DNA of 20,998 nt from IMG/VR virus record IMGVR_UViG_3300010883_000623, positions 1 through 20,998 of that record, one strand, 5' to 3'. Source of the stretch: a virus. Positions within the stretch are counted from its first letter, which is position 1. Each line of letters opens with the position of its first letter. The notes below the pieces were generated by a model that saw nothing but the letters and a program-made list of their open reading frames with translations, was not told where the DNA came from and ran no database searches. The position numbers and the translations under genes are program-made. This document shows positions 4,971 to 18,130 of the stretch, piece after piece.

Positions 4971-5174
4971 GTGGTACAACAGACGACAATCAACCTTAAG
5001 AATTTACGGCTAGGATCCTACAGCAATGAGGGTAACCGGTCCTACACTATGATACTCACCAACACCGGCCACGCTGTAGGTAAGTTTGTGACCGTGGGAC
5101 ATGGATACCGGGAACACCTTCGTAGGTTGAAGGCTGTAATTAAGAAGGATGTTAAGGATGACACAACACCATGA
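4971..5174 (+). CDS. Hypothetical protein (67 aa), GTG start
   Basis: This short gene follows the large terminase by 17 bases. The GTG start at 4971 is set by AAAGGAGCGA eight bases upstream, the same ribosome motif used by several other genes here. The product begins VQQTTINLKNLRLGSYSNEG, has a central beta-like segment (YTMILTNTGHAVGKFVTVGHG) and ends in a basic helix (REHLRRLKAVIKKDVKDD). The 3' end overlaps the nuclease gene, suggesting translational coupling. No known family is recognised. A DNA- or RNA-binding accessory is possible given the basic tail. Confidence 0.6.
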   Translation: MVQQTTINLKNLRLGSYSNEGNRSYTMILTNTGHAVGKFVTVGHGYREHLRRLKAVIKKDVKDDTTP

Positions 5175-5532
5175 CCCGTACCTGTACCATGCGGTAGTTA
5201 AACCCGCAGACGTGTACGACGGGGACAGTGTAACAGCCCGTATAGACTTAGGCTTTGGTGTATGGCTACATAGGCAGAAGATACGTTTGTGGGGCATTAA
5301 CACACCAGAACTACGTGGAGCCACCCGCCGGAAAGGCCAAGCAGCCCGTGACCACCTGCGTGACCTATTGCCAGAGGATGGACTAATCTACATACGCAGC
5401 TACAAAGACCGAAAAGGTAAGTATGGAAGATGGTTGGCTGAGCTAATTATTACTAAGCCCGACGGAACAGCTATCAACGCTAATACGAATTTAGTGGCTA
5501 CCGGCCACGCAGTGGAATACATGAGGAGATAA
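5158..5532 (+). CDS. Staphylococcal-nuclease-like (SNase) endonuclease
   Basis: A 124-residue enzyme of the thermonuclease fold that hydrolyses DNA or RNA with Ca2+. YDGDSV at 20-25 supplies the metal-binding Asp pair. IRLWGINTPE at 42-51 carries the equivalents of catalytic Arg35 and Glu43, and YGRWLAEL at 89-96 the equivalent of Arg87. All key residues are therefore present and the enzyme is probably active. No signal peptide is seen, so it acts in the cytoplasm. The ATG at 5158 is preferred over the one at 5149 because AAGAAGG lies nine bases before it and directly abuts the earlier ATG. It sits between terL and the portal, which suggests a role at packaging or in host DNA breakdown. The role is inferred. 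Confidence 0.88.
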   Translation: MTQHHDPYLYHAVVKPADVYDGDSVTARIDLGFGVWLHRQKIRLWGINTPELRGATRRKGQAARDHLRDLLPEDGLIYIRSYKDRKGKYGRWLAELIITKPDGTAINANTNLVATGHAVEYMRR

Positions 5533-7301: not shown

Positions 7302-10300
7302 ATGCCAGTCACACAGTGCTACCATGAAGGCACCCCCGGCTACCGCTGGGGGCAACAGGGCACGTGCTACACGGGCTTGGGGGCCAAGGCTAAGGCAATT
7401 AAGCAGGGGCGTGCTGCAAGGGCACAGGGGGCCACACAGGGGGCCACCACGCACAACGCCAAACAAGCAGCACGCAAGGTAGCCAGTCCTTTAAGGGCTG
7501 ACCCTACCCGCACCACCACGCTCCGCCGTAGGTTTGAGACCGAAATGCGTAAGCGGTTCAACCGGCTAAAGGCAAAGATCAAACACCTATTAGTTGTGGA
7601 GGACGTGTTTGGACTACGACCTAAAAACCTTAACCCACTGGGCATCGGTAATACACTGGGGAGCCCCAGCAATGAGGCAACGGGGGTGGTTAATGTTGGG
7701 CCTCCTGGCCACGCTGAGAGTATCTCGGCCTCCCCAGTATATAACCAGCGGTGGCGGTTCTTAACAGACGATGCCAAGGTGGACCAGTTTGGTCAGTGGC
7801 TAGGTACCCAGTACTCGGATATAGTACCCGGCGAACTGGGTAACGTGGACGACGCGTGGTTTACAGCCTACACTGAGGAGGGCTACCGCAAGGGGGCAGG
7901 TCGTGCGTTTGACGATGTACGTAAGCCCATGTTAGCTAGCGGCAATGAGGGGAACATGAGTTGGTTTGCTGGCAGCCGCGATGAGTTTCTTAGGCAGAGC
8001 TTTGCTCACCCCGTAGCTATAGGCAAGGTAAAGCTATTAGCTGGACGGGTGTTCACAGAGTTAAGGGGTGTGACCCAGACTATGAGCCAGCAGCTTACCC
8101 GTGAACTAGCGGACGGGCTGGTACAGGGTATGAGTCCCCGTGAGATAGCCCGTAGAATGGCCAAGCGGGTGGACAACCTTACCCGCACCCGTGCTAATGT
8201 TATTGCCCGTACAGAAATAATACGTACTCACGGTGAAGGCCAACTGGATGCCTTAGAGACCCTAGGCGTTGACAAGGTGGGTGTTATGGCTGAGTGGTCA
8301 ACCACTGGAGATGACCGGGTGTGTCAACTATGCCTACCCCTGGAAGGCACGGTCCTAAGTGTTAAGGAAGCCCGTGGTTTGTTACCACGCCATCCTAACT
8401 GCCGCTGTGCCTATGTTCCTGCCATGCCTGACTGGCTAGAGAAACCACCACCCACCCAGCTACGTACCAAGGCCAAGGTGGATAAGGCTTTCGGGAAAAG
8501 TATAAGGGGGGAGATCCCTAAGGGGCAACTTCGTAAGCGTAGCCTAGCCCAGCAGAAAGCACGCAGCCCGTGGGCAGGTGCAGATAGGAAGATACTTAAA
8601 CGGAAACGCAAGCTGCCACTTCAACCCGATGGCCGTACTGGCACCACCCCAGTAAACTGGCCTGAGTTAAGTGCTGCCGAGAAGAAAGAGTTTGAAGGGT
8701 ATATCAAGGATCGGGTACGGCTTAACAAGCTAAAGAAAACCGTAGGTCTGAGTGCTGAAGACCAAGTTGCACTAGACCATGCCCTGCTACGTATTAAAGA
8801 TCTTACGGAGCTAATGAAGAAGCGGGCTGCCGACAAGGGTGTGCTACACGTACCTAAGAGCAAAAAAAGTAAAGCTAAGGCCAAGGACACACCAAAGGAA
8901 AAAGCTCACCCAGCTAGCCTAGTAGAGCCACCGGCACCTATTAGAAGCGGCGACATCCTAGATGACATTGCTAACAACCAATACCTGGACGACCTACAGC
9001 GGCAGGTTGTTGCCGCAGGGGATGATCCTTGGATATATAAAACAGAGAAAGCCTTGTCTGATAAAGTAGAAGACTCCGTAGAGGCCATATCTCAGTTATC
9101 CGACGAGGTGCTAAAGGCCAAACAAAAGTGGATAAACGCCAACCAGGAAGGCATCGTAGGCTTCGAACCCATCTACGACGTAGACGGCAGCAGAGTGTAC
9201 GGCTTTTTTGACACAGTGGAGGGTAAGCAGTTTTTGAAGCTAGCCAGTGACCTGGGAGACGCTGTAGCAGCGAATAAGAAGGCTCTACTAAAACACCTCA
9301 CAACAGGTAGGAATAAGGACATATATAGGATACTAGAAGTGCTGCCAGAGGACCGAGCACCAATAACTTGGACACGGGTAAAGACTACCCACACCGAGCA
9401 CGGTTATGGTGGTAAGACAATCACCTATAAAAACAAGACCGATCTCATTGTTAGAGATAAAGCCGATGAAGCTTCCGAGTGGTTAACTAGGTTCACTAGG
9501 AAACGGCACAAGGGGCTAAGTCCTGTGGAGGTGGAATATATTGCCGATGATATTAAGTTTAATATCGAACTTCTAACTGACAGAAAGAAACGACTAGTAG
9601 AGTTCCAAGTTGAGTTGGATGATCTTAAGGCCATCCGTAAAGAGTGGCGGGGGCCAGTTAAGAAAGACGGGTATCATGATCCAAAACCACTAGACGAGTT
9701 TGGGCGGATACCTGACCCTAGACCGGGACATGGAAATCTTTGGAAGCCCACTGAGTTGAGGCATAGGATTGATGATCTTGAGGCACAGTTTGTTAAGCTC
9801 ACTCAGAAGGCAGAAGCCACCACGAAAAAACTAGCCAACTTGGAAGGTAAGTATAAAGTCGCACAGTCGGGGGGTAAGATTGCAGAGTTCGACGGCTTCG
9901 ATATGCAGTTGCACCGGATAAGGACAAAGGGGAGAGCTTTCCACCGGCCGAACTCCCACACTAATCCCGGTATTTATTGTAGTGATACTAGCGATGTTAG
10001 CACGTTCATACACGAGTTCATGCACCGGTACGAGCAGGAGATGCCGGGTATGCTTCAGCAGGCTAGACAGTTTAAGGATATGCGTATAGCCAGGAGCGGA
10101 AAGCCGGTTGCCAACTTTAAAAAGAAATGGCCAAACAGCAACTATAAGCCGTATGAGGAAGGTAGTCCAGACGACTTTGAAAAGGTGTATAAGGCTGTCG
10201 GGCGTGGTGACTCTGCAGCAGAGAGGGCTGCTATGTATGTGGGTAAGAACTACGACGACGCTACAGAGGTCTTAACTATGGGCATCCAGCTGATATATGA

Positions 10301-10376
10301 AAACCCGGCTGAGTTTGCGAAGGCTGACCCGGAGTGGTTTAAGTTTATTGTAGGTGTGCTAAAGGGGACTCTTTAA
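7302..10376 (+). CDS. MuF/gp7-type head morphogenesis protein with C-terminal HEFMH metallopeptidase-like module
   Basis: A 1024-residue fusion, far longer than typical gp7/MuF proteins of about 250-450 residues. The N-terminus (residues 6-45) has the Cys/Gly motif CYHEGTPGYRWGQQGTCY. Residues 265-375 are the MuF core, with ANVIARTEIIRTHGEG, the CQLC pair at 341-344 and HPNCRC at 364-369, a likely zinc site. Residues 380-870 are long, charged and helical. Residues 900-908 contain IHEFMH, an HExxH zinc-protease motif; Glu989 in ATEVLTMGIQ is a candidate third ligand, as in gluzincins. The DNA looks more AT-rich from about 9,000. Known MuF proteins can carry C-terminal toxin domains delivered with the virion. 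The start at 7302 has only a weak ribosome site. Confidence 0.85.
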   Translation: MPVTQCYHEGTPGYRWGQQGTCYTGLGAKAKAIKQGRAARAQGATQGATTHNAKQAARKVASPLRADPTRTTTLRRRFETEMRKRFNRLKAKIKHLLVVEDVFGLRPKNLNPLGIGNTLGSPSNEATGVVNVGPPGHAESISASPVYNQRWRFLTDDAKVDQFGQWLGTQYSDIVPGELGNVDDAWFTAYTEEGYRKGAGRAFDDVRKPMLASGNEGNMSWFAGSRDEFLRQSFAHPVAIGKVKLLAGRVFTELRGVTQTMSQQLTRELADGLVQGMSPREIARRMAKRVDNLTRTRANVIARTEIIRTHGEGQLDALETLGVDKVGVMAEWSTTGDDRVCQLCLPLEGTVLSVKEARGLLPRHPNCRCAYVPAMPDWLEKPPPTQLRTKAKVDKAFGKSIRGEIPKGQLRKRSLAQQKARSPWAGADRKILKRKRKLPLQPDGRTGTTPVNWPELSAAEKKEFEGYIKDRVRLNKLKKTVGLSAEDQVALDHALLRIKDLTELMKKRAADKGVLHVPKSKKSKAKAKDTPKEKAHPASLVEPPAPIRSGDILDDIANNQYLDDLQRQVVAAGDDPWIYKTEKALSDKVEDSVEAISQLSDEVLKAKQKWINANQEGIVGFEPIYDVDGSRVYGFFDTVEGKQFLKLASDLGDAVAANKKALLKHLTTGRNKDIYRILEVLPEDRAPITWTRVKTTHTEHGYGGKTITYKNKTDLIVRDKADEASEWLTRFTRKRHKGLSPVEVEYIADDIKFNIELLTDRKKRLVEFQVELDDLKAIRKEWRGPVKKDGYHDPKPLDEFGRIPDPRPGHGNLWKPTELRHRIDDLEAQFVKLTQKAEATTKKLANLEGKYKVAQSGGKIAEFDGFDMQLHRIRTKGRAFHRPNSHTNPGIYCSDTSDVSTFIHEFMHRYEQEMPGMLQQARQFKDMRIARSGKPVANFKKKWPNSNYKPYEEGSPDDFEKVYKAVGRGDSAAERAAMYVGKNYDDATEVLTMGIQLIYENPAEFAKADPEWFKFIVGVLKGTL

Positions 10377-10868: not shown

Positions 10869-11105
10869 ATGCGAGTGGTTACGGAGATACCTAAAGTCAA
10901 CGGCCTACGGGCTACGTACCTAACACTAGAAGCGGAGAGCCTAACCGATGAGCGAATACTAGGTGCCCTAACTGCCCTAACCTATTATGGTGGTGTGGGC
11001 ACAGTCAACATTCCTCACAGGGAATGGGGATTTAGTTTTACTCTGGAAGCTGACCCTTCCGATCCAACAGAGGAACCATATGATGAACTCACTGACGATG
11101 ACTAA
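10869..11105 (+). CDS. Hypothetical acidic protein (78 aa)
   Basis: This gene starts four bases after the membrane protein stop, with only a weak GGA-type ribosome site, so coupling is likely. The product starts RVVTEIPKVNGLRATYLTLEAESL, contains a likely beta strand region (GVGTVNIPHREWGFSFTLEAD) and ends in a very acidic tail (DPTEEPYDELTDDD). There is no recognised family. It overlaps the start of the winged-helix-like gene. It may be a small capsid-associated or regulatory protein; nothing decides between these. Confidence 0.6.
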   Translation: MRVVTEIPKVNGLRATYLTLEAESLTDERILGALTALTYYGGVGTVNIPHREWGFSFTLEADPSDPTEEPYDELTDDD

Positions 11106-11349
11106 CGGCTATACTCCCACACAGCAGGCTATGCTAGATGTGCTGTCTGATGGGCAGGCCCATACCCGTCAGGAGCTGCACGCCTGTCTGCCGGACGAGC
11201 TAGGTCCGCTCAGTAATATAAACGCTCACCTGTGTAACACCCGTAAACACCTACGGCCCATAGGTCAAGATATTGTGTGCGAACTGGTTAACCGTCGGAT
11301 ATGCTACCGGCATGTACGGCTACTAGCCAGCACGTACACAGGTAAATAG
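11080..11349 (+). CDS. Small winged-helix-like DNA-binding protein (89 aa)
   Basis: The ATG at 11080 was chosen because AGAGGA lies about six bases before it; the frame to 10987 lacks a ribosome site, and an ATG at 11098 is another option. The body reads TPTQQAMLDVLSDGQAHTRQELHACL, then LGPLSNINAHLCNTRKHLRP, then VCELVNRRICYRHVRLL. This is a helix-turn-helix followed by a recognition-type helix and wing, similar in build to the OmpR C-terminal domain and to small phage HTH proteins I have seen. It could regulate late genes or a packaging step. Overlap with the preceding gene (11105) suggests coupled translation. Family is inferred from pattern. Confidence 0.65.
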   Translation: MMNSLTMTNGYTPTQQAMLDVLSDGQAHTRQELHACLPDELGPLSNINAHLCNTRKHLRPIGQDIVCELVNRRICYRHVRLLASTYTGK

Positions 11350-11415
11350 TAAGCGTGTATAACTGGACACGTCCCATTGCTTGTCTCAGCTAAAAGACCA
11401 TACCCTAGGTAACCT

Positions 11416-12687
11416 ATGGAACAAGTAATAGTCAATCTGATTGGCAGCACACGTAGAGAAACATTAAACGGACGGGAGCACATTGTTGCCCCACTTAGTT
11501 TAATAGTTCCAGGTGTGCTGAACGGTAGCCGTGGTCCGCTGTACTACCCACCAGAGGAGGTAGCCAAGGACCCGTCTATATGGAATCACGTGCCTATTGT
11601 GGTGTACCACCCAATAGTAGATGGACAGCAGGTCAGTGCCCGGGACCCTGATGTACTCAATGCCCAAGGTATAGGCGTGGTCCTACGGGCTACTATAAGC
11701 AACGGTAAACTAAAGGCCGAAGGCTGGTTTGATATAGAGCGGACCAACAAGGTGGACCCCCGCATACTAACCGCCCTGGAGCAAGGCCAGCAGATTGAAC
11801 TAAGCACAGGCTTATTCACTGACAACACCCCAGCCCCCGAAGGGGCTGCCCACAACGGTACAGCGTATGACCGTATAGCCCGTAACTACCGTCCCGACCA
11901 CCTAGCCATACTGCCCGACCAACAAGGGGCGTGCAGCATAGCCGACGGCTGTGGCGTGCTAGTTAATGATGCAGAAACCGAAACAGCCACTAACACTAAA
12001 GGATCTACCAGCATGGCTACAAAGCTGAACGATGAAGATAAGGCAGCCGTTGTAAACAGTTTGATTAGTAACTGCGACTGCTGGGATGAAAAGGACCGTG
12101 AGGTACTTAACACCTTTAACGATGGTAAGCTGCAAGCCTTACAGCAGCGGGCTGAACAGGATCAACAGACCCTCCTGGTAGCTAATGCAGCGACCACAGG
12201 GTTTAAAGACGAGGCCGGTAACAGTCACACTTATAATTCCGACACAGGTAATTGGGACAGCACCATGGCAGAAGTTAAAACCCCAGAACCGAAAGCCGTC
12301 GAGGAAGAAGAAACGGCTATTGAACCACGGCCTCCTCAGACCACTAACGAGTGGATGGCTACAGCCCCGGTGGAAATCCAGAGTGCTGTACGTAATGCGA
12401 TGGAAATTGAAGCCCGTGAAAAGGCACAGGTTATATACCATATGACGGCAAACGTCTCGGAAGAGGCTAGGCCCGGTTTGGTAGAAGCCCTGCAAGGTAA
12501 GGAGCTGAGTGAGTTGCGTACCTTGTCAGCACTGACTCCGGCAGCCCCAGCCGCTTCCCAGGAGCCTACTGCTAGCTATGCTGGTGCAGCCGCACCCGTG
12601 GGTAACGCACAGGCTAGCGACTTTGATAAGGATGACCTGTTGCCCCTGCCCACTATTAACTGGGCCAAAGAAAACTCTTCCAAATAA
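11416..12687 (+). CDS. Prohead protease (DUF2213-like) with scaffold-like C-terminus
   Basis: A 423-residue maturation protease that cleaves capsid and scaffold during head assembly. The N-terminal 180 residues have the DUF2213 pattern: VVYHP at 63-67 (His65), ELSTGLF at 128-134 (Ser130) and RPDHLAILPDQQGACSIADGCG at 159-180 (His162). His65 and Ser130 are the likely catalytic pair, by analogy with the HK97-type protease fold. Residues 200-423 are helical and Gln/Glu/Ala-rich, as in scaffolds. A probable internal start at 12013 would give the scaffold alone. The ribosome site is AGGTAA. The gene is followed by the decoration and capsid genes, which is the expected order. Confidence 0.85.
   Translation: MEQVIVNLIGSTRRETLNGREHIVAPLSLIVPGVLNGSRGPLYYPPEEVAKDPSIWNHVPIVVYHPIVDGQQVSARDPDVLNAQGIGVVLRATISNGKLKAEGWFDIERTNKVDPRILTALEQGQQIELSTGLFTDNTPAPEGAAHNGTAYDRIARNYRPDHLAILPDQQGACSIADGCGVLVNDAETETATNTKGSTSMATKLNDEDKAAVVNSLISNCDCWDEKDREVLNTFNDGKLQALQQRAEQDQQTLLVANAATTGFKDEAGNSHTYNSDTGNWDSTMAEVKTPEPKAVEEEETAIEPRPPQTTNEWMATAPVEIQSAVRNAMEIEAREKAQVIYHMTANVSEEARPGLVEALQGKELSELRTLSALTPAAPAASQEPTASYAGAAAPVGNAQASDFDKDDLLPLPTINWAKENSSK
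12013..12687 (+). CDS. Internal in-frame start: candidate scaffold protein (224 aa)
   Basis: Met200 of the protease is preceded by AAAGGA at nine bases, a good ribosome site inside a coding region. Translation from it would make a separate 224-residue protein, starting MATKLNDEDKAAVV, with an Ala/Glu/Gln-rich helical body. The split point lies right after the protease domain. Lambda makes its scaffold Nu3 from an internal start in the protease gene C, and this arrangement is the same. Expression of the short form is predicted, not shown. Confidence 0.45.
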   Translation: MATKLNDEDKAAVVNSLISNCDCWDEKDREVLNTFNDGKLQALQQRAEQDQQTLLVANAATTGFKDEAGNSHTYNSDTGNWDSTMAEVKTPEPKAVEEEETAIEPRPPQTTNEWMATAPVEIQSAVRNAMEIEAREKAQVIYHMTANVSEEARPGLVEALQGKELSELRTLSALTPAAPAASQEPTASYAGAAAPVGNAQASDFDKDDLLPLPTINWAKENSSK

Positions 12688-12736
12688 TCTTAGCGTTTTA
12701 ACTAACGCACCCCACTAATCTACGGAGATAAGACTC

Positions 12737-13210
12737 ATGGCCATTGGAAATGAAATCGTTGTTAGCGGTAACCCGAAGGGGGTGTTCCTCGAGGGTACTG
12801 TGGATGGCACACCCAAGCCGGGTACTGTCATGCAGATTAACGCACAAGAACCCGCCAATGGACGCCACGACTGGACTGCCTTTAACGCAGATGCAGACGG
12901 TGACCAGCGGTTGATTGCTGTGTTAAACATCGACCACCTGCAAGGTAAAATATCTACGGATGCCTATGTTGATGGTGACAGATGTTTCCTGTATGTGCCA
13001 GCAGCAGGCGAAGAGATTAACGTGCTCGTAGCGAACATTGCCGGTACGTCCGACTCCTTTGCAATTGGTGATCTGCTTATGGTCAATGACGGTGATGGTA
13101 AACTTATTGCCACCACTGGCAGCCCGGAGAGTGAGCCGTTTATTGTCCTGGAAACCCAGTCTGCAATTACAGCGGACACACTTATCCACTGTATGTATAC
13201 TGGACGCTAG
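12737..13210 (+). CDS. Probable capsid decoration protein
   Basis: A 157-residue protein placed between the protease and the capsid gene, where decoration or cement proteins usually lie. It is beta-rich, with GTPKPGTVMQINAQEPANGRHDWTAF near residue 25 and a long beta-strand second half. There is no signal or membrane segment. Codon use is like the capsid: by my count only one Ile codon of about thirteen is ATA. That fits a highly expressed virion protein. GGAGA lies about nine bases before the ATG. No specific family (such as gpD) is claimed; the role follows from position and codon use. Confidence 0.6.
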   Translation: MAIGNEIVVSGNPKGVFLEGTVDGTPKPGTVMQINAQEPANGRHDWTAFNADADGDQRLIAVLNIDHLQGKISTDAYVDGDRCFLYVPAAGEEINVLVANIAGTSDSFAIGDLLMVNDGDGKLIATTGSPESEPFIVLETQSAITADTLIHCMYTGR

Positions 13211-13260
13211 GAACCTTCTAACCCTCTCCCTACACTTATAAGATCTACAGGAGTACTACA

Positions 13261-14406
13261 ATGTTCGTCGACTACATTCTTAACGGGCAAGGGCACGGAA
13301 ACGTGGCCGAGCAGCTTGCTGGTACTGGGTTCGACCCCGGCTTGCTTCGCCCCTATATTGACGGTGGTGGTAACAAGTGTGTGACTGTTAATACAGGACG
13401 CACCGAATACGACGCCGACAGTGGCCAGTATAAGCCCCTCTTCGAGAAGAGGCTGGTTAGTGAGTGTGTTGCCAACGGGATTAATAGCCCGGTGTTCAAC
13501 GCCACCAGCCTGCGAAAGCAGGAATGGCTCCAGCTTGATTCTGTGGTGCTGCGTGCAGCCCGCGAGCGGCTGCGTGCCTGGAGTGACTTGGCTGGTGTTA
13601 ATAGCTTTGGCGGGTTTAACGGCATGTCCAAGATGATTCTTGAACATGAAACCATGTCCGACCCCGGCGAAGCCGTGGTTGATATGGACGGGCTGACTGA
13701 AGGGCGTACAGACACCCCTCGGTTCCAGCTTGAAGGTTTGCCGCTGCCTATTACTCACAGCGACTTCTGGTTTAGTAGCCGACGGTTGGCTGTTAGCCGT
13801 AACACAGGTACCCCGCTTGATACCACCATGGGTGAAGCGGCTGGTCGACGTGTTGCTGAGCAGATCGAGAAGACGCTGATCGGTACTGTTACTGGTGCTA
13901 GCTACGGTGTGGCTGGTGACTATAGCAATGCACCCACGGTGTACGGCTATACCAACCATCCGGACCGTAACACTAAGACAGACCTGACGGTGCCAGATGG
14001 TACCAACGGAGCCACTACGGTGGACGAGGTGTTGTCTATGATCGAAACCCTTATGGGTGACAAGTTCTTCGGTCCCTACATGGTGTACCATAGCACCGAC
14101 TGGGATAAGTACTTGGATGATGACTACCGTACGAATGATGACCGTACCCTGCGTGCCCGACTGCGGGAGATAGAGCAGGTGCAGGATGTTCGGCGGTTGG
14201 ACTTCCTTTCTAATACCTTTACCCTGCTGCTGGTGCAGATGACCAGCGACGTGGCCCGTGCTGTTAACGGCATGGACATTACCACTGTGCAGTGGGATAG
14301 TGTTGGTGGGATGCGTGTTAACTTCAAGGTTATGGCTATCCAGGTGCCACAGATTCGCAGTGACTTTAATGGTAACTGCGGTATCTTGCACGCCACCACG
14401 GCGTAA
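13261..14406 (+). CDS. Major capsid protein (HK97-like fold)
   Basis: A 381-residue major head protein. It follows the protease/scaffold and decoration genes, has AGGAG nine bases before its ATG, and uses preferred codons (one ATA in about thirteen Ile codons). The protein starts MFVDYILNGQGHGNVAEQL and contains RKQEWLQLDSVVLRAARERLRAW (long helix), then FNGMSKMILEHETMS, and a P-domain like segment. The C-terminal beta region carries TLLLVQMTSDVARAV and GMRVNFKVMAIQVPQIRSDF. It belongs to the HK97-fold capsid group by context and general pattern; the exact family is not claimed. The DNA also gives a 394-codon antisense open frame, which is a codon-bias artefact. Confidence 0.85.
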   Translation: MFVDYILNGQGHGNVAEQLAGTGFDPGLLRPYIDGGGNKCVTVNTGRTEYDADSGQYKPLFEKRLVSECVANGINSPVFNATSLRKQEWLQLDSVVLRAARERLRAWSDLAGVNSFGGFNGMSKMILEHETMSDPGEAVVDMDGLTEGRTDTPRFQLEGLPLPITHSDFWFSSRRLAVSRNTGTPLDTTMGEAAGRRVAEQIEKTLIGTVTGASYGVAGDYSNAPTVYGYTNHPDRNTKTDLTVPDGTNGATTVDEVLSMIETLMGDKFFGPYMVYHSTDWDKYLDDDYRTNDDRTLRARLREIEQVQDVRRLDFLSNTFTLLLVQMTSDVARAVNGMDITTVQWDSVGGMRVNFKVMAIQVPQIRSDFNGNCGILHATTA

Positions 14407-14422
14407 TTTTTAGGGGAACCTG

Positions 14423-14459
14423 CTACCCGGCAATCGTGGCCTATACGGTTGCCGGGTAG
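14423..14459 (+). terminator. Strong hairpin after the capsid gene
   Basis: CTACCCGGCAATCG (14423-14436) pairs with 14446-14459 in a 14-base-pair stem with one G-T pair and a nine-base loop. No long T run follows on either strand, so a canonical terminator is not supported. It may instead slow exit from, or protect, the abundant capsid transcript and lower expression of the neck genes. Confidence 0.55.
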
Positions 14460-14508
14460 TTGGGCCTGCCCCGTTTACTACCTAACACCTCACCCCAGGA
14501 GCGAGACC

Positions 14509-14895
14509 ATGGCAGCCACCTACCGACTCAAGCGGGGCAAGCACCAGCAGACTATTAATGGTCGCACTGTGGTATATAGTGCTCTGGATCCAGCAGGTAA
14601 CGCACGACCCGGTTTTAGTAAGGGTGACGAATACGTTAGCAGCGACCAAGACTTGGTTGACCTATTCGGTCCTCAAAAGTTTGAACGGGTGCCAGATGAC
14701 CAAGTGCCTTCGGCTATTAGTAGCCCCGAGCAGCCAGAAGCGGCAGCAGTTAACAACCTGGAAGGGCTTGACACCTTGACTGTTGCCGAGCTACGTACCC
14801 TAGCTGACGAAGAAGAAATTGACTTGGATGGTGCTAAGCTAAAGGGCGATATTATATCTGTCTTAGAGGAAGCTGGTATATCCGCCAGCTTGTAA
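14509..14895 (+). CDS. Phage head protein with C-terminal SAP/HeH-like domain (128 aa)
   Basis: The ATG at 14509 is preferred, with AGGAGCGA upstream; a longer frame from 14449 would start inside the hairpin. The N-terminal part starts MAATYRLKRGKHQQTINGRTVVY, likely beta-stranded. Residues 88-127 read LEGLDTLTVAELRTLADEEEIDLDGAKLKGDIISVLEEA, a helix-extended-helix pattern like SAP/HeH or Rho-N domains that bind nucleic acid. Such domains recur in small phage genes after the capsid. It may help DNA retention or head completion; the domain call is by pattern, the role is inferred. Confidence 0.7.
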   Translation: MAATYRLKRGKHQQTINGRTVVYSALDPAGNARPGFSKGDEYVSSDQDLVDLFGPQKFERVPDDQVPSAISSPEQPEAAAVNNLEGLDTLTVAELRTLADEEEIDLDGAKLKGDIISVLEEAGISASL

Positions 14896-14916
14896 CCTAT
14901 ACCGGAGTGTCCAGCT

Positions 14917-15324
14917 ATGGCACGTGCCACCGACGCAGACGTTAGGGCTATCTTAGATGACGCCAGCGGTATAAGTACCAGTGTACCTATACGTGCTGCT
15001 GGTACGCTGGTGGACTGGTTAACTACCACCTGTGACAACGCTAGCCTATTAACCACTGCACAGCTTAAAGAAATTGAGACGTGGTTAGCTGCCCACTTTT
15101 ACGCTCACGCTGATCCTCAGTTTGCTGCTAAGGCCACAGGTGGGGCCAATGCTACATTCCAGGGGCAAACGGCAATGAACCTATCCAGCACTACATGGGG
15201 CCAAACCGCCATGATGCTGGATGTTACTGGTTGCTTATCAGCCAGGAGCAAGGGCGGTAACGTGGGCATGGCGTGGTTAGGCAAGCCACCCAGTAGCCAG
15301 ATAGACTACGAACAGCGAGATTAG
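14917..15324 (+). CDS. Head-tail connector / adaptor (DUF4054-like)
   Basis: A 135-residue protein with a ribosome site GGAGTG about seven bases before the ATG. The helical start MARATDADVRAILDDAS and the pattern LTTAQLKEIETWLAAHFYAHADP, followed by GQTAMNLSSTTWGQTAMMLDVTGCL, resemble head-completion proteins that bind the portal ring. It lies right after the capsid block and before other neck genes, as expected. It fills the seam between portal and tail. The specific family is not proven here. Confidence 0.6.
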   Translation: MARATDADVRAILDDASGISTSVPIRAAGTLVDWLTTTCDNASLLTTAQLKEIETWLAAHFYAHADPQFAAKATGGANATFQGQTAMNLSSTTWGQTAMMLDVTGCLSARSKGGNVGMAWLGKPPSSQIDYEQRD

Positions 15325-15328
15325 TACG

Positions 15329-15694
15329 TTGGCAACTTTAGAAACCACAGCCCTACATCAGAAAGCCGTACTATATACGGCTAACGGATTTGACGATTAC
15401 GGTGAACCTAAAGTGGATGCGGCTGTTGAGATAGATGTGCGTTGGGAGATAGGCAAGCACGAGGGCATAAGCCCCACGGGTGCTCCTATAGCTCTGGATA
15501 GTACCGTGGTGGTAGACCGTGAGATAGCTATAGGTAGTGCAATGTGGTTAGGGGCACTGGCGGACTTACCCAGCCCTGTAACTAACCTTCGTACAGTTAT
15601 TGACTACGCTGAGATCCCAGATATAAAGGGTAGGCAGGTATATCGGACGGTTAGCTTAATGAAGCTGAGCGACGAGATACCCGCTAGTGCATAA
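15329..15694 (+). CDS. Probable neck protein, TTG start (121 aa)
   Basis: The frame starts at a TTG (15329), four bases after the previous stop; no ATG or GTG fits near the start and the ribosome site is weak, so coupling is likely. The protein is beta-rich, with KAVLYTANGFDDYGEPKVDAAVEIDVRWEIGKHE and a C-terminal IPDIKGRQVYRTVSLMKLSDE. This resembles short head-closure or stopper-like neck proteins, though I cannot name a family. Position between the connector and the accessory block fits a neck function. Confidence 0.5.
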   Translation: MATLETTALHQKAVLYTANGFDDYGEPKVDAAVEIDVRWEIGKHEGISPTGAPIALDSTVVVDREIAIGSAMWLGALADLPSPVTNLRTVIDYAEIPDIKGRQVYRTVSLMKLSDEIPASA

Positions 15695-15699
15695 CTACA

Positions 15700-15951
15700 A
15701 TGGAGGAAGATAGAATAGTAGAGTTGGTTACAAGTCTAAAAGCACAGGTATCGCAACTACGAGAACAGGTAGGTAAAATAGAGGAAGCTATGGAAGTCTA
15801 CCAAACAGAAATATCAGGGAACGGTAATAACATGGGCATTCGTACGCGGGTGGCTATTATCTGGCGTACTTATGTGTGGATCCTGTGCAGTGCTAGTGCC
15901 GTTAGTGGCAGTTTCATAACCTGGATGGTCATGCGGCACCTACAGAATTAA
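15700..15951 (+). CDS. Coiled-coil protein with one membrane span (83 aa)
   Basis: The ATG is five bases after the preceding stop, with no clear ribosome site, so it is likely coupled. Residues 5-35 form a coiled coil (EDRIVELVTSLKAQVSQLREQVGKIEEAM). After NNMGIRTR there is one hydrophobic span near residues 52-72 (IIWRTYVWILCSASAVSGSF), then a basic end. The build is like XhlA-type or other small membrane phage proteins. It lies next to the secreted protease gene, so it may anchor it or act in lysis; both ideas are inference. Confidence 0.6.
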   Translation: MEEDRIVELVTSLKAQVSQLREQVGKIEEAMEVYQTEISGNGNNMGIRTRVAIIWRTYVWILCSASAVSGSFITWMVMRHLQN

Positions 15952-15960
15952 GAGGATAGG

Positions 15961-16974
15961 ATGAAACACCCCGTTGCTCACTCCCTACTGTACCTGTTGC
16001 TGCTGGTATCTAACCGGCAGGCAATAGCCCAGGAAGTCCACCCAGCCAGTGTACGTATAGCCAGTAACAAGACCACCTGTAGCGGTACACTAATTTCCAA
16101 GGACGTTACCACGGGCATGGTGCAGGGGCTTAGTGCAGCCCACTGTTTTAAGAAGGGCAAATCCCTAACCGTATACTTGCCCAGTGGTAGGACCGCTACA
16201 GCCAACATACTTAAACGCTCTGAAGGTGTCGACCTGTTGCTGTTTGCTTTCAAGGTAGACCAAGAACAGGTGTCCCGTATCAAAGTAGCCCCAGTTGCTA
16301 AGGGCCGTACACCGGGCGACAGATACTATGCAGTGGGGTTCCCAGGTGGGCAAGCTACGCCAGCACGGGTTGACTTAAAGCTGGACACCCCAGGAGGGGC
16401 AGAGTCATGGACGTGGTACAACGTAGTAGGTGGGAAGTTTAGTTGGGGCAGTAGCGGGGGTGGTGTCTTTAACACCCGTGGTCAACTGGTGGGCACTATA
16501 GCCCGCACCAACACCGGCGAGAGCTTTACCCGGTTGGGTGCCAACAGCATAACGGACGTACGTACGTTCGCAGGGGTTGCCCCAGCACAGCCAGCCACAA
16601 TACCAGTGGCCGGACTGTTCGGTGGGAATAGCAGCGGGGATACGTACCCTGACCGAGTAGCCAGCGAAATGATACGGCAGCTACAGCAACAGGTGGCCGA
16701 GCTAAGCCGTCTGGTAGCCGATCTGAGGGCCGTAAAGCCCCCAGCCGTAGTAACTGGCCCCCAAGGCCCAGCAGGGCCACAGGGGTCCGCAGGGGCTGCC
16801 GCAGGGGGGCTACCGGGTGTACCGGGTAAACCGGGGCCAGCAGGGCCAGCGGGTACCCCCGGTACCACAGGTGTCATACGTATAGAGGTGTACCGCCAAG
16901 GACGGCTAAATAAAACTATAGAGGATCTACGCACGGGAAGTACCGTGCGGTTAACTATTTCGGATAAGGAGTGA
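15961..16974 (+). CDS. Secreted trypsin-like serine protease with coiled coil and collagen-like repeats
   Basis: A 337-residue protein in a virion operon. Residues 1-23 form a signal peptide, with a hydrophobic core and an AIA cleavage site before QE. Residues 28-205 are a chymotrypsin-fold domain. TCSGTLIS with Cys40, SAAHCF with His61 and Cys62 match the histidine loop; Asp91 (GVDLLLF) and Ser165 (GSSGGGVF) complete the triad, so the enzyme looks active. Residues 231-258 are a coiled coil (ASEMIRQLQQQVAELSRLV). Residues 266-304 have Gly-X-Y triplets (GPQGPAGPQGSA, then GLPGVPGKPGPAGPAGTPG), which trimerise in other proteins. A beta C-terminal end follows. GAGGAT lies five bases before the ATG. 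ATA is frequent, so expression need not be as high as that of capsid. Confidence 0.9.
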   Translation: MKHPVAHSLLYLLLLVSNRQAIAQEVHPASVRIASNKTTCSGTLISKDVTTGMVQGLSAAHCFKKGKSLTVYLPSGRTATANILKRSEGVDLLLFAFKVDQEQVSRIKVAPVAKGRTPGDRYYAVGFPGGQATPARVDLKLDTPGGAESWTWYNVVGGKFSWGSSGGGVFNTRGQLVGTIARTNTGESFTRLGANSITDVRTFAGVAPAQPATIPVAGLFGGNSSGDTYPDRVASEMIRQLQQQVAELSRLVADLRAVKPPAVVTGPQGPAGPQGSAGAAAGGLPGVPGKPGPAGPAGTPGTTGVIRIEVYRQGRLNKTIEDLRTGSTVRLTISDKE

Positions 16975-16981
16975 GACTACC

Positions 16982-17215
16982 ATGGCAGACAGTACACACG
17001 CAGGAGAAGGACATTCGGTTAACTTCAATGAAGTTATTGCACGCAGCCAAGCGACTACCTTGGACGGCATGGGTAAGATGTTCGGTTTGGCGACTGACTT
17101 GCAACGGGGTATCTTCGCTAAGAAGATGGATGAGATTGACCCGGTGCAGGCAGCAGCTATTAGGCAGGTGAGCCACCGTGAAGCACCAATTGGTATCATC
17201 GCACCATCTGCCTAA
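16982..17215 (+). CDS. Hypothetical protein with capsid-like codon use (77 aa)
   Basis: AAGGAG lies about ten bases before the ATG at 16982. The protein starts MADSTHAGEGHSVNFNEVIARSQ, is mostly helical with TTLDGMGKMFGLATDLQRGIF, and ends APIGIIAPSA. No family is recognised. All seven Ile codons are ATT or ATC by my count, while the neighbouring protease gene uses ATA often. This is the pattern of the capsid and decoration genes, so the product is probably abundant. It might be a virion component or an assembly aid; the role is not known. Confidence 0.65.
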   Translation: MADSTHAGEGHSVNFNEVIARSQATTLDGMGKMFGLATDLQRGIFAKKMDEIDPVQAAAIRQVSHREAPIGIIAPSA

Positions 17216-17253
17216 GCAGGCTATTAACACCGAGGCCGTAAGAGGAGCGAGGG

Positions 17254-17502
17254 ATGACTACCACCACGTTACGGTCTGAACAACTATATAGTCTGGCCAA
17301 ACGTGTTGAGCAGGGTAAACCTATAGACGGTCCTGCCCTGCTCAACGCTATGGCTATAACACAGGTGGCCCATGATGCCGAGTATACAGAACGCATCAAC
17401 GAGCGATGGCAACAACGTGCCAAACGACTACAGTCGCAACTGGATGAACTTCACAGAGTCGATACTGGAGGATCAGCGGCTGAACCGGGTAGCAGTGTGT
17501 AA
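17254..17502 (+). CDS. Hypothetical helical protein (82 aa)
   Basis: GAGGAGCGAG lies a few bases before the ATG, the strong ribosome site shared by other genes here. The protein reads as helical throughout: LRSEQLYSLAKRVEQGKPIDGPALLNAM, then EYTERINERWQQRAKRLQSQLDELHRV, then a flexible Gly/Ser end. There is no membrane span or lipobox. Its 3' end overlaps the next gene. It may be a tail or neck assembly factor; no family is recognised. Confidence 0.6.
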   Translation: MTTTTLRSEQLYSLAKRVEQGKPIDGPALLNAMAITQVAHDAEYTERINERWQQRAKRLQSQLDELHRVDTGGSAAEPGSSV

Positions 17503-17770
17503 AGCCTTAGATATTCCGGTGGAACCTGTGCGTGACTTAACCGTAACCAACACCAGTAAAGGTATTAGTGGCTGGGCCACGGCTGCTGTGGCTGGGTCTA
17601 TGCTGATGGGTGGACTAGGTGGTGGCATGGGGCTGACCAGCCTGCTTAACAACATACCGCAACTACCACCAGCTATTACACCTATCACACCTATAGACCC
17701 GCAGCCTCCACAGGTTATATACCGAGACAAGCAAGTGGATGTAGAAGTTATCCCTCCACCAGGAAACTAA
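17444..17770 (+). CDS. Hypothetical protein with hydrophobic Gly-rich segment (108 aa)
   Basis: This frame overlaps the end of the previous gene by 59 bases. The ATG at 17444 is a guess, as the ribosome site is weak; a longer frame goes back to 17372. The protein starts MNFTESILEDQRLNRVAVCKALD. A hydrophobic Gly-rich stretch follows near residues 50-70 (TAAVAGSMLMGGLGGGMGL), then a Pro-rich end (LPPAITPITPIDPQPPQVIY) and VDVEVIPPPGN. The hydrophobic part could be a membrane span or a pore-type segment. The Pro-rich tail is typical of flexible linkers. No family is recognised. Confidence 0.55.
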   Translation: MNFTESILEDQRLNRVAVCKALDIPVEPVRDLTVTNTSKGISGWATAAVAGSMLMGGLGGGMGLTSLLNNIPQLPPAITPITPIDPQPPQVIYRDKQVDVEVIPPPGN

Positions 17771-17776
17771 ACCTTT

Positions 17777-18130
17777 ATGCCCATAATCACAGGCATTAAT
17801 AGACTACGCAGAAAGTTAAAAGCCATGGAGCTTTTAGCTGAGAAGCAGGACGCCGTTGACGTGGTGGTGGGCTACACCACTAAGTATGCCGTGTACGTGC
17901 ATGAGAATATGGAGTCCCACCACACCGTGGGCCAAGCCAAGTACCTGGAACAGCCTGCCCGTGAAATGGCAGATGAACTAGGTACTATCGTGGCCAAAGC
18001 TGCTAAGCGTGGGCTACCATTGGATACGGGACTACTACTTGCTGGATTAAAGCTACAGGCAGCAAGTCAGAAGCTGGTACCAGTAGACACAGGCAACCTT
18101 AAAGGTAGTGCCTTCACGAGGAAGGAATAA
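17777..18130 (+). CDS. Tail completion protein (HK97 gp10-like)
   Basis: A 117-residue protein with VDVVVGYTTKYAVYVHENMESHH near residue 27, GQAKYLEQPARE near residue 52 and LVPVDTGNLKGSAF near residue 99. These match the HK97-gp10-like group, which joins head and tail. The last motif (VDTGNLKGS) is diagnostic of the family. AGGAAAC lies about 12 bases before the ATG. The next gene starts two bases after its stop. It acts at the head-tail interface during joining. Confidence 0.8.
   Translation: MPIITGINRLRRKLKAMELLAEKQDAVDVVVGYTTKYAVYVHENMESHHTVGQAKYLEQPAREMADELGTIVAKAAKRGLPLDTGLLLAGLKLQAASQKLVPVDTGNLKGSAFTRKE

Follow-up and report, generated by a model that had tools for sequence, protein, structure and literature searches.

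A putative exported protease with a collagen-like stalk, encoded in a phage virion operon at a site where peptidases recur

The window, the whole 20,998-nucleotide stretch of viral DNA analyzed here (IMG/VR record IMGVR_UViG_3300010883_000623), encodes a 337-residue protein in which a predicted clan PA protease domain is followed by a predicted coiled coil and a collagen-like segment (Table 1). This layout joins known modules in a new way, at a slot that repeatedly holds peptidases; the open-access papers found on phage proteases, collagen or lysis do not describe it, which is not in itself proof of novelty. The protein may be an exported, trimeric serine protease that digests the host envelope as part of a swappable lysis or egress cassette, a reading to which we give somewhat less than an even chance. 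The computed evidence comprises the ORF, the protein fold, the triad residues, selection on the glycine register, the position of the cassette, the unrelated peptidases of relatives, and searches in which endolysin families were not found.

Table 1. Genes of the cassette, its boundaries, and the parts of the protease-collagen protein (positions in the window)
Feature	Position	Strand	Basis or remark
Connector/adaptor-like gene, upstream boundary	15329..15694	+	HMM-traced in 64/81 loci; function by position only
83-aa protein, coiled coil then C-terminal hydrophobic segment (59-77)	15700..15951	+	Hydropathy
Putative exported protease-collagen protein, 337 aa	15961..16974	+	ORF, Pfam, dN/dS, alignment, AlphaFold2, Foldseek
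Signal-peptide-like N-terminus, residues 1-23	15961..16029	+	Sequence; analogous N-termini elsewhere
Chymotrypsin-fold protease domain, residues ~24-205	16030..16575	+	Pfam, alignment, AlphaFold2, Foldseek, dN/dS
Predicted helix/coiled coil, residues 233-257	16657..16731	+	AlphaFold2; a/d hydrophobic spacing in sequence
Collagen-like segment, residues 266-304, two Gly-X-Y runs	16756..16872	+	Pfam, shuffles
C-terminal domain, residues 305-337, possibly docking or trimer-nucleating	16873..16971	+	dN 0 vs G001
77-aa protein	16982..17215	+	99% identical in G001, 92% in L050
132-aa protein, Gly/Ala-rich hydrophobic segment (70-88), Pro-rich tail	17372..17770	+	Hydropathy
Tail-completion/connector-like gene, downstream boundary	17777..18130	+	PHROGs weak match; traced in 52/81 loci

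The ORF fits its coordinates exactly and starts with an ATG that has AAGAGGATAGG immediately 5' to it. Its product is ordered from the N- to the C-terminus as a signal-like segment, the protease domain, a linker, the helix, the Gly-X-Y repeats and a C-terminal domain. The N-terminus has a basic n-region, a hydrophobic core at about residues 8-16 and the motif A21-I22-A23, and was judged to be signal-peptide-like, in line with the original prediction. This segment evolves fast in comparison with the nearest relative, G001 (dN 0.15), and signal-like N-termini are also present on the proteases of L050, L013, L030 and L097. In a single-chain AlphaFold2 prediction the mean pLDDT of the whole chain was 61.7; the barrel domain was confident (mostly 80-90 over residues 30-205), a helix was predicted at 233-257, and the remainder was disordered.

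Pfam Trypsin_2 matches residues 40-178 (E 3e-14, over its cut-off), and the best PDB matches of the model found with Foldseek are DegP, DegQ and HtrA (E 3.5e-11); Foldseek also finds viral trypsin-like proteins, which include the BFVD entry A0A516LES5 (E 8e-15). The protein is therefore modelled as a clan PA serine peptidase (Trypsin_2/S1) with a double beta-barrel. The catalytic residues occur in the order His, Asp, Ser, with the GxSGG motif present as G163-S-S-G-G167. H61, D91 and S165, the full triad claimed in the original prediction, are invariant in an alignment with the two closest homologues, as are C40 and C62, which probably form the predicted disulfide, since they are conserved at positions usual for the fold. 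The description as trypsin-like holds for the fold only. Trypsin proper has Asp189 and cuts after Lys or Arg; here the residue six before the catalytic Ser, which by counting is chymotrypsin position 189, is K159 and not Asp, so that trypsin-like specificity is not indicated. The same Lys is found at the counted position in L050. The Pfam scan of the whole protein returned Trypsin_2 and Collagen alone, with no match to PDZ or to a peptidoglycan-hydrolase domain. We reject a role as capsid-maturation protease, given that the protein has a signal peptide and that peptidase class is exchanged between relatives.

The 12 or so Gly-X-Y triplets of the original prediction were found as 12 triplets in two runs, one of five (266-280) and one of seven plus a further Gly (283-304). 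Pfam Collagen matches residues 266-304 with E 1.5e-4, slightly under Pfam's own cut-off. None of 20,000 shuffles of the whole protein reached the Gly-X-Y pattern, and when only the Gly/Pro-rich segment was shuffled, 2 of 20,000 reached its longest run. Relative to G001, Gly was kept at 13 of 13 positions of the register and the X and Y residues at 13 of 26 (dN/dS 0.22/0.29 over residues 263-304), a pattern expected of a triple-helix segment under selection. The predicted coiled coil corresponds to the AlphaFold2 helix with its a/d hydrophobic spacing. By analogy, the coiled coil and the collagen segment may join three chains into a trimer; the phage protein EPclA, in which a coiled coil also lies beside collagen, is trimeric by experiment (PMC3368898). 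The C-terminal 33 residues are unchanged in G001 (dN 0), and this domain shows weak similarity to the end of an unfused coiled coil-collagen ORF in G016 (E 3e-4).

In G001, a 61.3-kb contig, the protein is 89% identical and lies in the same place, and its protease domain is under purifying selection (dN/dS 0.022/0.285, ratio about 0.08). A tblastn search of 50,697 phage records with the protease-collagen protein gave no match. Related loci, 80 in all, were gathered via the capsid protein; scans with three other cassette proteins added few new loci, and a wider protease search with the alignment returned solely the two known homologues. L050 carries the same protease-collagen fusion (46-47% identity) in the same four-gene order. 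L030 and L016 have a 477-aa protease-collagen fusion with a different C-terminal domain, and in L013 the protease and the stalk are encoded separately by adjacent genes, the second of which shares 42% identity with the C-terminal half of the L030 fusion (199 aligned positions, E 9e-51) and encodes the stalk. A split protease/stalk pair lies between terminase and portal in G016. G076 and G077 encode a trypsin-domain protein of 550 aa that begins with a signal-like segment; genes for a membrane protein and an alpha/beta-hydrolase-like protein lie ahead of it. The fused and split versions tie the protease and stalk modules together. Since the layout recurs at the homologous slot in other phage contigs, the idea of a common host gene carried by chance is not supported. 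Among annotated phage proteins, the trypsin-like phrog_9683 ('protease') matches the protease part only (residues 57-179, E 3.6e-9); A0A516LES5 matches the protease domain and may have a similar stalk.

The protease gene is one of a four-gene cassette between two connector genes, and its predicted place inside a virion operon is supported. Counterparts of the two connector genes are adjacent to each other in most relatives, and the isolate MaInes has no insert after the capsid gene, the correspondence being drawn by gene order. Small genes with one hydrophobic segment flank the protease on both sides; the segments are modest and match no holin family. The 83-aa protein (hydropathy 1.58 in the window, 1.61 in G001) matches no Pfam or PHROGs family and is possibly a holin-like or other lysis-related membrane protein. 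The 132-aa protein has a hydropathy of only 1.18 in the window, 1.54 in G001 and >1.6 in L050, and is possibly a membrane protein. Membrane or coiled-coil genes precede peptidases in several relatives; the upstream membrane protein of L050 has no detectable kinship to the 83-aa protein. The 77-aa gene is an unusually conserved small gene, being 92% identical in L050 though the neighbouring protease is only about 46% identical.

Relatives hold unrelated peptidase classes in this or a nearby site, namely S1, matrixin/astacin zincins, papain-like C1 and S53. Among the M10/M12-like zincins, those of L009 and L011 have an MMP-like cysteine-switch motif, of which L010 carries a variant. These phage zincins (L009 11802-12659, L011 10929-11975, L010 9588-10479) have a matrix metalloproteinase layout with a peptidoglycan-binding-like prodomain, a PRCGxxD cysteine-switch motif and HExxHxxGxxH; that of L010 is in two parts in two overlapping frames. 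An astacin-like protein is found in L041/L042, papain-like C1 enzymes in L018, L035 and L037 (in L021 and L086 by Cys/His motif only), S53/S8-type peptidases in L032 and L033, a Nal1-type trypsin fold in L012, and further Trypsin_2 proteins in other relatives. The non-S1 peptidases are mostly without signal peptides. On the capsid-protein tree, the window's clade (SH-aLRT 100 by the quick method) has a peptidase near the virion genes in 23 of its 41 rows and the sister clade in 2 of its 39, and class must have changed at least eight times. These figures are approximate: motifs underlie some labels, a few pairs of rows are identical, a contig cut short could account for an absent label, not every peptidase sits in the slot, and S1 was sought in whole records and other classes only near the capsid gene. 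Within the window's clade the peptidase often occupies this slot, beside a small membrane-protein gene. In a Pfam scan of 94 non-core proteins of the region, the best 25 of 40 families include Trypsin_2 (six proteins), M12-type (four) and M10 (two), together with astacin, C1, S8, lipase and CAP, and no peptidoglycan hydrolase.

Other genes are found in the same regions. Further hydrolase- or effector-like genes (L014 11569-12330, L028 9616-10038, L032 5574-6227, L097 761-1366) comprise class 3 lipase, phospholipase-A2-like with a CNIHD motif, CAP-domain and alpha/beta-hydrolase-like types, some recognized by motif only. In the sister clade (L052, L056, L063, L067, L071 and others) a repeated 'VIGGGPSLK'-type gene of about 215 aa is inserted between the first connector and the adaptor gene.

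In the textbook view, phages lyse their hosts with endolysins. Among 35 long relatives, on contigs that may be incomplete, Amidase_2, Phage_lysozyme, SLT and Amidase_3 were each found in 0, and M15_3 only in G052, a member of the sister clade; in a search for GH108 the controls themselves gave no match. In G001 no endolysin is among the best 25 of 42 Pfam families or the best 25 of 28 PHROGs families, and the best small membrane-protein candidates are the two cassette genes. The endolysin and peptidase data give moderate support to a lysis or egress cassette in which peptidases act in place of or beside endolysins. That relatives carry unrelated proteases in the gene slot suggests that these viruses use protein-cutting, not the usual wall-cutting, enzymes on the host envelope. 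The signal peptide would direct export via Sec, the coiled coil and collagen segment would join three chains so that protease heads are borne on a stalk, and the invariant C-terminal domain might dock the trimer to an envelope component. Digestion of host envelope proteins, with the adjacent small membrane proteins, would then aid the release of progeny, and the cassette would serve lysis or egress, with unrelated classes of peptidase replacing endolysins or working alongside them. Holin-endolysin cassettes with exported endolysins are similar in having a late hydrolase of exchangeable class beside small membrane proteins; here, in contrast, the enzyme has a protease fold and is not a peptidoglycan hydrolase, and a lysis role is our interpretation. 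A review proposes holins and proteolytic enzymes for the lysis of S-layer hosts, for which tailor-made proteases would be needed (PMC4456609); that proposal concerns archaeal viruses, with no enzyme known.

A stronger form of the argument seems to us unlikely: that in one clade of uncultured tailed phages host lysis relies on exchangeable serine, metallo-, papain-like and sedolisin-type peptidases and not on endolysins, as the release-limiting envelope layer is protein. The collagen-stalked protease would then be one version of these enzymes. If the peptidases prove to be lysis enzymes, they would form a new kind of lysis system, a protease-based egress route in a phage group without recognized common endolysins of the families tested, and would supply sets of proteases suited to the envelopes of hosts about which little is known. 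Even if they do not act in lysis, the recurrent peptidase slot marks a place in a virion operon to seek exported phage effectors, and the arrangement of protease, coiled coil and collagen is an unusual natural design for an enzyme with several heads.

The main rival is that the slot is a general site for secreted, moron-like cargo, because lipase, CAP, thioredoxin-like and cytochrome-like (PSCyt1-like) genes share the peptidase regions of relatives. The protease would then be a host-modifying or competition factor, either exposed on the infected cell or set free by it, that removes receptors, blocks superinfection or acts on neighbouring cells or matrix. We hold this to be possible, if on the unlikely side. 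The same secreted genes count against the lysis reading, as do the modest hydrophobic segments, the missing holin family match, the peptidases outside the slot and the scarcity of signal peptides on non-S1 peptidases. Differences in the cassette between close relatives also speak for cargo. Against it speak the over-representation of peptidases among the recognized functions of these regions, the recurrence of several unrelated peptidase classes, the small membrane-protein genes adjoining them, and a clade in which the common endolysins searched were not found. Of the functions originally listed, an exported host-modifying or envelope-targeting enzyme remains the best fit, the role itself being conjectural.

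The original prediction also allowed for a virion protein, here a trimeric fibre or spike whose protease would cut host surface proteins at adsorption or entry. The gene lies within the virion operon, the PHROGs tail matches fall in the collagen part only, and stalks of collagen and coiled coil are known from phage fibres such as EPclA, which resemble the present protein in the coiled coil beside collagen and in a C-terminal domain (PMC3368898). Unlike those fibres, the protease lacks a fibre N-terminal domain, as well as a receptor-binding domain, and carries an enzyme and a signal peptide; a Sec signal would take it from the cytoplasm before assembly, and we do not favour this role, which appears improbable. 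The gene is, moreover, placed between connector genes outside the tail-fibre region, and most other versions of the peptidase are without collagen (P-rich runs occur in a few ORFs). The collagen segment is also much shorter than in typical tail fibres. Least probable, and in our view very unlikely, is a periplasmic HtrA-like protease for quality control or counter-defence, active during infection and not at its end. The closest solved folds are those of DegP, DegQ and HtrA, which act as periplasmic trimers, and bacterial proteases of the HtrA/Deg and Trypsin_2 types share with the phage protein the double-barrel fold, the His-Asp-Ser order, export and the best Foldseek matches. Identity is only about 20%, however; the phage protein has no PDZ domain and has its own coiled coil, a new C-terminal domain and a collagen stalk without counterpart in HtrA, and a Deg-like role is hard to reconcile with the unrelated peptidase classes of relatives. 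The envelope-digesting egress protease remains our preferred, if tentative, reading.

The window itself gives no pointer to the host. Signs in relatives point weakly to Planctomycetota: PSCyt1, 'Planctomycete cytochrome C', is over its cut-off in G025 and under it in G037, and L014 contains the sequence LEPLEERNLLS, which has no Pfam match and which we take to be typical of planctomycete secreted proteins. Planctomycetes have peptidoglycan (PMC4432640), and an endolysin would therefore still be expected; a protein layer as sole barrier is not implied. A capsid-protein search of genome contigs gave four MAG contigs only, of mixed taxa. The nearest isolate capsid proteins, from Brevundimonas, haloarchaeal, enterobacterial and Mannheimia phages, are 24-37% identical, too distant to assign a host.

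Several other features were observed. The DNA of the G001 phage may be hypermodified: its locus L006 has thymine-hypermodification-type genes at about 11081-18095, with a 5-hmdU DNA kinase helical domain (two members), an amino acid:DNA transferase (ADDT) and a thymidylate-synthase-like protein, and G001 also carries tRNA-Met. Matches to DUF7660, Epimerase_2 and Pertussis_S2S3 were under cut-off and were disregarded. A 394-aa frame antisense to the capsid gene (window 13207-14391, minus strand), open in G001 too (14206-15390, minus strand), is most likely a shadow ORF from codon bias. A 1024-aa MuF-type protein (window 7302-10376) has a C-terminal HEFMH zincin-like motif (STFIHEFMHRYEQE), so that this head-morphogenesis gene may carry a second, metallopeptidase-like domain. 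Small genes resembling thermonucleases (SNase-type) recur in the window (5149-5532), L013/L088, L030 (13187-13561) and L028 (10038-10394), and that of L088 is preceded by a hydrophobic, signal-like N-terminus.
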